From contig NZ_JQLW01000006.1 in assembly GCF_000744415.1 (NCBI RefSeq), positions 124,001 to 188,000 on the forward strand: DNA of 64,000 nt, in the 5' to 3' direction. Positions 26,006 to 52,400 of this stretch are shown here, in pieces (within the stretch, counting starts at the first letter, position 1; every line of letters starts with the position of its first letter). Both the position numbers and the translations under genes were made by a program. This DNA is from Ghiorsea bivora. GTDB lineage: Bacteria > Pseudomonadota > Zetaproteobacteria > Mariprofundales > Mariprofundaceae. The notes beneath the pieces are model-generated. The model did not search any database. It was not told the origin of the DNA and saw only the letters and a list, made by a program, of their open reading frames with translations.

Positions 26006-27183
26006 ATTCTCGCCAGCAACAGCATTTTCAGTTCATCATTAGTAAGTTTAATCGGGTTGGTGGCATAACTACCCCCACTAATATTGGCAATAATACGCTC
26101 CACATCATTTTCTGAAACACCATAGTCTGATAATTTGGGCATTTGCAAATGCTGTTGCCAAAGTTCAAGCATGCCCAGCAACATTTTAAGCGCATCCGCC
26201 GCATCCATATTCATATCAGGTACAAACAGCCGCCCTACTTTGGCATATTTGCCTAAAGCTGGATTGTATTCATCTCGGCTCAACATGGCTTGGATATTAA
26301 TTCGTGTGGCTTCAAATAATAATGAACCACACACCACACCATGCGGAATGGGAAAGAATGCACCCAACGGTGATGCCAAGCCGTGAACTGAACCAAGCCC
26401 TGCATTGGCAAGCGTTAAACCTGAAATCGATGAGGCATACAACATATCGGCTCTCGCCAACATATCATCACCATTCTCATAAGCTGCTGACAATGCCGTC
26501 ACAACCTTTTCCAATGCCGACCATGCCAAAGCATCCGTCATCGGGCTTGCATTGAGCGACACATAACTTTCCAACAATTGGGTAAATGCATCCATACCAC
26601 ATGCAGCGGTGACTTCCTTGCTGCAAGTCATGGTCAATTCAGGGTCAAGCACAATATGTTTGGCAACCAAATCTTCATGCCGAAATGATTTCTTAAATCC
26701 ATGTTCACCAATCACCGACAACACTGCATTTTTGCTGGTTTCACCACCCGTGCCCGCCGTGGTGGGCACTGCAATCAATGGTGTCGTTGGTTGTTTGAAT
26801 GTTTTACCTTTACCCACACCTTCCAAATACTCCATCACTGAGTCACCCGAAGGCAACAGCCCTGCCACGGCTTTGGCTGCATCCACAGCGCTGCCACCAC
26901 CAATGGCTAGCACCACATCAGGTTGAAACCTTTGATAACGTTTCACCCAATCATCCACCATCTGCGGTGAAGGTTCGCCCACCATCTTTTCTCTACACAC
27001 TTCAAAGTCTTGCTCTAATTGCGATAATAACTGCTGACATAAATCAGAATCATCAAAAGACTTTCCGCCCGTAATCAACAATACTTTATCGCCATAGGTT
27101 TGAATGATGGTAGTAAGTGTATTTCTCGTGCCCACGCCAAAATGAATATGCGGCGTGGCTGCAAAATGAAACGAATTAAACAT
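26002..27183 (-). CDS. Iron-type alcohol dehydrogenase with a changed metal ligand
   Basis: NAD(P)-dependent dehydrogenase of the iron-containing ADH family, 393 residues. The NAD-binding GGGSAVDAAK (95-104) and the AVPTTAGTGGETS segment (138-150) are intact. The metal site normally has Asp, His, His, His; here the positions read Asp198, Gln202, His267 and His281, so the first histidine is glutamine. Spacing is otherwise as in FucO-type enzymes. Metal choice or activity may therefore differ. It is the last gene of the Fur-box operon and overlaps the RibD-like gene by 8 bases. The substrate cannot be told; a butanol- or lactaldehyde-type reductase are equally possible. Confidence 0.88.
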   Translation of the reverse strand: MFNSFHFAATPHIHFGVGTRNTLTTIIQTYGDKVLLITGGKSFDDSDLCQQLLSQLEQDFEVCREKMVGEPSPQMVDDWVKRYQRFQPDVVLAIGGGSAVDAAKAVAGLLPSGDSVMEYLEGVGKGKTFKQPTTPLIAVPTTAGTGGETSKNAVLSVIGEHGFKKSFRHEDLVAKHIVLDPELTMTCSKEVTAACGMDAFTQLLESYVSLNASPMTDALAWSALEKVVTALSAAYENGDDMLARADMLYASSISGLTLANAGLGSVHGLASPLGAFFPIPHGVVCGSLLFEATRINIQAMLSRDEYNPALGKYAKVGRLFVPDMNMDAADALKMLLGMLELWQQHLQMPKLSDYGVSENDVERIIANISGGSYATNPIKLTNDELKMLLLARI

Positions 27184-28072
27184 ATTGAAACCTTTGAAAT
27201 AGCTGATTTTGAGCTGTATCCAAATACAAAGAGATAAGTTTTAAAGATTGTGCTTTGGATAAATCGGCATCCACTAAACCTGATGCTTTTTCACCCCCCA
27301 ACAAGGTGAAATGCGTGGTCAAAAACAATTCATTCACACAAGCATCTTTGATAAACGTGGCATGCACTTTCGGGCCAGCAATCAAATACGCACTACGATA
27401 GTTTAAATCAAGTAAACACTGCCGCATAAACTTACCTGTCACCCCAAACGAAGCACCACAGGTAGGCTTCGCACCCAAGGGGTCTCGAGATGTCTCGACT
27501 TCCCCCAGGGGATACTCTCTAGCTACGCTATTCACCTTATCGCTCGACATGACAGGTAACACCAACACACCCGCTTGCTCAAGCTGCGTTATTTTTTCAA
27601 CATCTGAAGATGATGTGCAAACAATCACCTTGCGGTCTTTTACCTTTTCCAAAGCTTCAAGCGGAATATCCAAAGAATCTGACAGTACCATCACATCAGG
27701 CTGTGGCTTTAAACCCTGCTTTTCTCGCCAGTGTTTAATATCAGCATACGCCTCACCCTCGCCCACAGGCAACAAATCTTGGGCTTTGCCCTTAGCGAGT
27801 TGCCTGAAATAACGTGCCGAGGTCAGCATCACATCTGCCTGCCCTGCCAACTCTTGATACAAGCGCCAGTCTCTACCATTGGCAATTGCAGGCGGCACTT
27901 CATACTCAGCCAATTGTTCATTATACAAGGCAATGCGCCCATCCAAGCTACTGATATAATTAACATAAATATAAACATCACCCGCTTTGGCTTGCTGATG
28001 TAAGTTTAAATCAAGGTAGGCCCCTTCAAGCAAACGCGTAACATCACACTGTGGATAGAGTTGTTTTAGCAT
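27176..28072 (-). CDS. RibD C-terminal-like reductase carrying an in-frame repeat insertion
   Basis: Protein of 298 residues with the fold pattern of the RibD C-terminal/dihydrofolate-reductase-like family: YVNYISSLDGRIAL near 37-50, DVMLTSARYFRQL near 80-92, DVMVLSDSLDIPL near 126-138, and LIAGPKVHATFI near 237-248. It lacks the RibD deaminase half, and is unlikely to be the main riboflavin enzyme. Roughly residues 175-212 (between VLVLPV and TGKFMRQ) do not belong to the family pattern. They are encoded by the nested palindromic repeat at 27432-27559, read in frame. The insertion falls between predicted strand and helix elements, so the protein may still fold. It starts directly after the ftr1 stop (TAAATG-type junction). 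Confidence 0.75.
   Translation of the reverse strand: MLKQLYPQCDVTRLLEGAYLDLNLHQQAKAGDVYIYVNYISSLDGRIALYNEQLAEYEVPPAIANGRDWRLYQELAGQADVMLTSARYFRQLAKGKAQDLLPVGEGEAYADIKHWREKQGLKPQPDVMVLSDSLDIPLEALEKVKDRKVIVCTSSSDVEKITQLEQAGVLVLPVMSSDKVNSVAREYPLGEVETSRDPLGAKPTCGASFGVTGKFMRQCLLDLNYRSAYLIAGPKVHATFIKDACVNELFLTTHFTLLGGEKASGLVDADLSKAQSLKLISLYLDTAQNQLFQRFQYV
27432..27559. repeat. Nested palindromic repeat inside the RibD-like coding sequence
   Basis: Bounded by a perfect 10-bp inverted repeat, TTACCTGTCA at 27432-27441 and TGACAGGTAA at 27550-27559. Within it, GTCACCCC...AGGGGTCT...TGTCTCGACT...CGCTCGACATGAC matches the intergenic repeat at 36668-36724 in the same order. In the second palindrome, between TGTCTCGACT and CGCTCGACATGAC, sits a further element on the minus strand (about 27500-27540, core AAGGTGAATAGCGTAGC). 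That element also occurs at 50518-50557 and 52302-52344. The whole is read in frame by the RibD-like gene. Confidence 0.85.
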
Positions 28073-35993: not shown

Positions 35994-36072
35994 TGTCATG
36001 TCGAGCGCAGTCGAGACATCTCGTACCGCAAAGATTTCTCCATTTCGCTACGCTCCAGTCGAAATAACAATG
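35994..36072. repeat. TGTCATGTCGAG-type repeat pair
   Basis: TGTCATGTCGAGCGCAGTCG...GACATCTC (35994-36022) followed by a second unit, CATTTCGCTACGCTCCAGTC and GAAATAAC, in the opposite sense. It lies directly after the nitrobindin-like stop and belongs to the same family as 36668-36724 and the outer part of 27432-27559. Confidence 0.65.
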
Positions 36073-36667: not shown

Positions 36668-36724
36668 TGTCACCCCGACTGGAATGGAGGGGTCTTAAGG
36701 TGTCTCGACTACGCTCGACATGAC
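36668..36724. repeat. TGTCTCGACTACGCTCGACA-type repeat, uninterrupted copy
   Basis: GTCACCCCGACTGGAATGG, AGGGGTCTTAAGG, then TGTCTCGACTACGCTCGACA and TGAC. This is the simple form of the element found with insertions at 27432-27559. Confidence 0.75.
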
Positions 36725-36738
36725 AATAAATAAATTTT

Positions 36739-50494: not shown

Positions 50495-50505
50495 CCCTTA
50501 CCCTC

Positions 50506-50571
50506 GTCATTCCCACGATTAGGTGAATTGCGTAGCAAGAGAGTATCCCCTGAGGGAAGACGGGAATCCAC
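50506..50571. repeat. REP-like palindrome with an inserted second element
   Basis: GTCATTCCCACG (50506) and CGGGAATCCAC (to 50571) are the arms of a REP unit like the uninterrupted one at 50653-50714. About 40 bp, core AGGTGAATTGCGTAGCAAG, is inserted in its loop (50518-50557). The same core is at 52302-52344 and 27500-27540, both on the minus strand. Confidence 0.8.
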
Positions 50572-50652
50572 AGGCAAGCTACGCACTCGAAAGGCCTTTC
50601 TGTTTTGAATATACCTTGACTATGCTCAGTATGACATCTCTCTCATCCTCTC

Positions 50653-52274: not shown

Positions 52275-52289
52275 TTCAACTCTCCCTTT

Positions 52290-52400
52290 GTCATTCCCTC
52301 GCCACCCCAGGGTGGTCTCTCTTGCTATGCAATTCACCTTCAGGAGGGAATCCACCTAAGCTACTCAACACACATGGATACCCGCCTTCGCGGGTATGAC
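52290..52400. repeat. Inverted REP pair with an inserted element, upstream of trpD2
   Basis: GTCATTCCCTCG (52290) and, after the insert, AGGGAATCCAC form the left unit; CCCGCCTTCGCGGGTATGAC ends the right unit at 52400. The insert at 52302-52344 is the AGGTGAATTGCATAGCAAG element on the minus strand. The left arm abuts the trpD2 ribosome-binding site. Confidence 0.8.

Follow-up and report, generated by a model that had tools for sequence, protein, structure and literature searches.

The window, a stretch of 64,000 nucleotides (G000:C6:124001-188000) from a 2.15 Mb genome of the deep-sea iron bacterium Ghiorsea (G000; Zetaproteobacteria), contains on its minus strand an open reading frame of 298 amino acids (27176..28072). 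The encoded protein matches the Pfam domain RibD_C (1.7e-12), and its predicted fold resembles RibD/Rib7 reductases in a comparison with PDB structures (best E 3.5e-14), so that domain and fold both place it among the RibD_C reductases. An earlier note on this DNA had described the frame as running unbroken through a repeat at 27432-27559; the frame is indeed open throughout, with the repeat proper occupying 27437-27554. About 38 residues are derived from repeat DNA read in frame, and the structure is nested, both as that note had proposed. The insert lies in the loop just ahead of the VTG motif of the reductase. Residues 179-208, in the insert region, have pLDDT values below 50 in a model with an overall pTM of 0.84, predicting an enlarged, disordered loop on an intact enzyme fold. 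As the hairpin repeat landed without breaking the frame, the enzyme appears to have gained a floppy 38-residue loop that is absent from its closest relatives. Rfam gave no match in the gene region.

The repeat-derived DNA is a 118-bp composite form of an outer, two-hairpin TGTCA...TGACA repeat (27437..27554, minus strand). Read in the orientation of the gene, the left hairpin holds in its loop a 39-bp element, here called element A (TCCCCCAGGGGATACTCTCTAGCTACGCTATTCACCTTA; 27501..27539, plus strand), and the right hairpin holds a further module, B (AAACGAAGCACCACAGGTAGGCTTCGCACC; 27446..27475), with a net contribution of 21 bp or 7 codons. Translated from the minus strand, this copy of A contributes to the peptide VNSVAREYPLG. 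The third module goes beyond the earlier note, as do the distribution over six genomes and a second gene that behaves likewise (both below). The A and B composite recurs between genes at G000:C11:96178-96254.

The insert had also been reported to be bounded by a perfect 10-bp inverted repeat, with TTACCTGTCA on the plus strand at 27432..27441 (read as TGACAGGTAA in the gene) and TGACAGGTAA on the plus strand at 27550..27559 (read as TTACCTGTCA in the gene). The TGTCA/TGACA portion does form the ends of the repeat, but the TTACC/GGTAA extension is confined to the allele of this genome; at 27550..27559, where TGTCA alone is repeat-derived, other carriers have ATCCGTGTCA or ATTTCTGTCA. At the opposite arm, TGACAGG is native gene sequence that encodes VTG and coincides with the right end of the repeat. 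Because TGACAGG occurs in insert-free genes too, the reported inverted repeat is partly a coincidence.

Related sequences are found elsewhere in the window. A 58-bp intergenic relative of the outer repeat, devoid of A, lies at 36668..36725 (BLASTN and pattern search), its arms matching the composite in pieces (23 bp at 87% and 14 bp at 100% by BLASTN), and a half-hairpin of the outer type (TGTCATGTCGAGCGCAGTCGAGACATCT) lies between genes at 35994..36021 on the plus strand (pattern search). The middle of the composite matches 50516-50565 (50 bp, 88%, E 3e-13) and 52305-52340 (36 bp, 81%), close to positions 50518 and 52302, where a second element had been noted. The former match falls in a CGTC-REP-type hairpin with A reversed in its loop (50505..50570, plus strand; BLASTN and pattern search), and the latter in a TGTCATTCCC hairpin with perfect 8-bp arms around a diverged A copy (52289..52351, plus strand; BLASTN). 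Module B sequence was also seen at 50568-50586, just outside the A-bearing hairpin rather than in its loop, a position that suggests B to be a movable or tail module itself.

Copy numbers and genome-wide statements derive from pattern searches allowing at most 3 mismatches. These yielded about 20 outer-type half-hairpins in the own genome and 0 in reversed-pattern controls. The half-hairpins covary strongly, with 97% of cells paired and 28 double changes compared to 9.3 in shuffled data (0/500). Thermodynamic folding of the simple outer repeat was no better than that of shuffles, and the same was true of A alone (z -0.95); the structural argument therefore rests on covariation.

To place the insert among relatives, the own genome and 60 relatives were surveyed, the latter mostly metagenome-assembled genomes with contamination of up to 9% in some (G002, G004). 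A homologue of the reductase is present in 37. Among the 14 Ghiorsea homologues, six carry an insert (G000, G003, G004, G005, G009 and G013), and the extra residues of all six fall between VI/VL and VTG. The other eight, together with every aligned family relative, have 4-6 residues at this position and no insert; insert-free homologues from the family and order were recognised by a full alignment or by two matching segments flanking the gap. The gene without the 38 residues, which the earlier note had named as the thing to look for, thus exists in close relatives. That note had also named the finding that would speak against it, the same residues encoded without repeat-like DNA, and no such case was found, as the insert of every carrier is repeat DNA. 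Both junctions are identical across the six carriers, and about 11 native bases appear to have been replaced by the insert in all of them. The simplest carriers, G009 and G005, gained 14 codons (net 42 bp) through a repeat of about 58 bp with two hairpins, which in G009 reads TGTCATGTCGAG...ATCGAGACATCTCGAGACCCTTCGACTTCGCTCAGGGTGACA. The G003 and G004 alleles contain A in the loop of the right hairpin, the own genome contains it in the left hairpin in the opposite orientation, and the G013 allele resembles a 39-bp deletion between the AGGG...AGGG repeats of an A-bearing allele. Simple flipping of the element in the gene of the own genome relative to G003 and G004 was dropped as an explanation because the stems around A differ, one being of the left and the other of the right hairpin. 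The resulting allele series, from no insert through the simple repeat, the repeat with A and the repeat with A and B to a deletion derivative, depicts mobile repeats building a protein loop step by step in a free-living bacterium.

Every insert in this series is in frame. Each net gain is a whole number of codons without a stop: 14 for the outer repeat, 13 for A and 7 for B. The usual A sequence, CACCTAA, would introduce an in-frame stop in either orientation, and CACCTTA is found instead in 3/3 A copies within hairpins of the reductase gene and in 0/28 of the other copies, which show CACCTAA or further variants. Chance alone leaves a 38-codon stretch open fairly often, as it could in a decaying pseudogene; the frame, however, is open in six genomes at several insert lengths, which already contradicts that reading, and the gene shows purifying selection outside the insert and a predicted intact fold, making a pseudogene a very remote prospect. 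Persistence in six genomes and the retention of stop-free variants could be expected of an adaptive loop that alters how the reductase is regulated, oligomerises or handles its substrate and that selection maintains. Against this, length and sequence of the insert vary freely among carriers, and the differences are mostly non-synonymous (7 non-synonymous and 3 synonymous over 14 codons between G004 and G013, for example), in contrast to the conserved remainder of the gene (28.5 vs 56.5). Given the predicted disorder as well, we regard an adaptive insert as quite improbable, and most likely the extra peptide serves no function by itself. The length rule, the loss of stops and a disordered insert that evolves non-synonymously agree with an insertion after which purifying selection acted on the enzyme, the peptide itself being nearly neutral.

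The gain of element A can be followed in pairs of filled and empty sites. In the right hairpin loop of the reductase insert, G004 reads CGACT|TCCCCCAGGGGATACTCTCTTGCTTCGCAATTCACCTTA|TCGCTC, with 39 bp between the bars, compared to CGACT|TCGCTC in G005. A second pair, between G015 and G004, lies in a gene for an N6/Eco57I-type methylase, where A stands by itself and outside any hairpin as exactly 39 bp (VNCEAREYPLGG) in G015 (site 1), and where the orthologues in G002, G004, G006 and G008 are without it. In both pairs, the gain is exactly 39 bp without target duplication. Pattern searches placed A at about 35 places in 11/41 genomes, nearly all Ghiorsea, with 0 control matches; the own genome has 4 copies, compared to 0 for reversed-pattern controls. 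Of 31 copies judged by eye, 28 sit in loops of hairpins of the TGTCA/CGTC type. The arms around A are complementary to each other beyond expectation, scoring 5.13 vs 4.15 with swapped partners (maximum of 300 permutations, 4.71). Within A, CCC/GGG and TTGC/GCAA hairpins can be drawn, whose covariation consists of a single pair, seen to change in three distinct copies. Viral contigs gave no exact match to A, and plasmids only a 20-bp match at chance level (E 0.5).

An alternative is that A is not mobile by itself, having been an ancestral part of some hairpins that was copied along with them while the stems diverged around it. The intact recurrence of the composite of A and B at an intergenic place is what this would predict. 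It is hard to reconcile with the clean presence and absence of 39 bp at two orthologous sites, one of which is no hairpin, and with stems around A that belong to sequence classes also existing without A; we therefore consider this alternative improbable. That A is a genuine mobile element of 39 bp, entering exposed hairpin loops as single-stranded DNA without target duplication and, thanks to its length of 13 codons, open to absorption by coding sequences, so that palindromes within genes generate new protein loops stepwise, is in its full form a tentative proposal, to which we would give somewhat less than even weight. If true, A would be among the smallest mobile elements known. Clean filled and empty sites of this kind offer a handle on how orphan palindromic repeats without a known transposase move.

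The methylase gene shows that in-frame insertion at the reductase is no freak. At site 2 of this gene, G015 has the outer repeat, G002 and G006 have plain CGTC-REP dimers, and G004, G008 and G012 have none. At site 3, the outer repeat is found in G006 and CGTC-REP-derived residues in G002 and G004, with none in G008 and G012. Repeats at all three sites are in frame.

Two readings account for identical junctions in separate lineages: a single insertion that spread by recombination, or repeated site-specific insertion. The gene tree rejects a single clade of carriers (AU p 1.9e-6), and a polA tree agrees with it in making the carrier G009 sister to the non-carrier G007. Such scattering on gene and species trees is what repeated, independent insertion would produce if the element recognised the native TGACA of the VTG codons, which equals its own end; insert-free relatives have native TGACAGG exactly at the junction, and at two methylase sites different Ghiorsea bear different repeat types at the same position. 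This explanation is less suited to the sharing of both junctions by all carriers, in which about 11 native bases also appear to have been replaced, and to a clear recombination tract running through the insert in G003 and G013. These two alleles, 81% identical overall, do not differ at all over a run of 74 bp that spans the insert (0/2000 permutations), from which the insert-bearing segment is shown, on sequence comparison, to have moved between at least two lineages. The recombination signal for G009 was not significant. Further identical runs in the gene were noted between G005 and G013 (98 bp near the 3' end) and between G004 and G005 (83 bp). Its sequence gives the gene the appearance of a mosaic built by recombination among Ghiorsea lineages, and the patchy distribution of the insert fits short-tract recombination. 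Because of this mosaic, one insertion followed by short-tract transfer is favored; its main competitor, several insertions at this one site, is in our judgment less likely than not.

Repeats read in frame are known from several systems, and the statement in the earlier note that they are known mainly from Rickettsia is wrong, since intragenic REPs are documented in many genera. CGTC- and GTAG-type REPs occur inside open reading frames of Opitutus, Thauera, Thioalkalivibrio, Xanthomonas, Stenotrophomonas and others, and two Xanthomonas recB genes have different REPs at about the same site (PMC3733652). In-frame fusions of MITEs are known in enterobacteria, Yersinia and Neisseria (PMC2229807; PMC10969869). 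Rickettsia palindromic elements (Ogata et al. 2000; reviewed in PMC10969869, PMC2229807) lie in frame in flexible regions of conserved genes and between genes, as do the Ghiorsea repeats; compared by description, the latter differ in bacterial class and in their modular build of two hairpins and a loop element.

A close likeness is to CGTC-type REPs, which are TGTC/CGTC-tagged hairpins with A-T pairs first, mostly head-to-head dimers without a dedicated transposase, located between genes and sometimes within them, where they encode 20-30 residues (Di Nocera et al. 2013, PMC3733652). The TGTC tag is present in 19/20 half-hairpins of the outer type, base pair 1 is A-T in 19/20 and pair 2 is T-A in 14/20. 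Unlike CGTC-type REPs, with their 8-9 bp stem and CCA tail, the outer type has 5 contiguous pairs and ends in TCT; plain CGTC hairpins in the window do have the 8-9 bp stem, 4-5 bp loop and CCA tail. Published loops measure 4-5 bp, whereas A-bearing loops in Ghiorsea exceed 40 nt and hold a defined 39-bp element that orthologous sites show to be present or absent. Certain insertion sequences likewise insert specifically into REP hairpins (Tobes and Pareja 2006, PMC1525189), but A is 39 bp, non-coding and not an insertion sequence. MITEs such as ERIC, YPAL and Correia/NEMIS resemble the Ghiorsea repeats in that they are small, lack autonomy and form in-frame fusions with genes (PMC2229807). They differ in their length of 100-200 bp and their terminal inverted repeats, and TA ends and a duplicated target are common among them; no target is duplicated where A inserts. 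Insertion without target-site duplication is shared with miniature elements of the IS200/IS605 type. The open-licence papers searched contained no report of a 39-bp element in REP-type hairpin loops or of a nested in-frame composite. What looks new is the 39-bp element that dwells in loops, together with the in-frame composite of several levels and the recurrence of repeats at the same site (a hot spot).

Taken together, we think it quite probable that the extra 38 residues are a mobile repeat read in frame, with selection and recombination accounting for its distribution. The two-hairpin TGTCA...TGACA repeat entered the reductase gene at one exact place, and the separate element A entered loops of the outer repeat and, elsewhere in the genus, loops of differently stemmed hairpins; it would prefer exposed loops and leave no target duplication. 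Hairpins and the missing duplication suggest non-autonomous elements moving via single-stranded DNA, perhaps mobilised in trans by a Y1/HUH-type transposase. Selection would have purged insertions that shifted the frame, added stops or disturbed the fold, and homologous recombination would have spread the surviving one.

Around the Y1_Tnp loci inspected in the own genome, none of these hairpins was found within ~1.5 kb and no A copy was nearby, and thus no Y1 parent element sharing the ends of A. This absence of repeat-flanked transposases agrees with CGTC-type REPs and departs from the GTAG REP/RAYT REPtron, in which the RAYT gene is bracketed by the same palindromes; mobilisation by a RAYT in cis was rejected on these grounds. 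A DUF559 endonuclease was rejected as the mobiliser as well, since other DUF559 loci are without A and the own genome is without a DUF559 gene. G006 stands out with 12 matches to Y1 transposases, some of them interrupted by stops, a number far above that of its relatives. Finally, in G005:C108 (L197), a DUF559 endonuclease-like gene at ~1270-2011 stands between direct repeats (161/180 bases identical), each of which holds element A and a CCCCTCTAACCAGAGGGG palindrome, and this locus may represent a mobile unit or point to the mobiliser.
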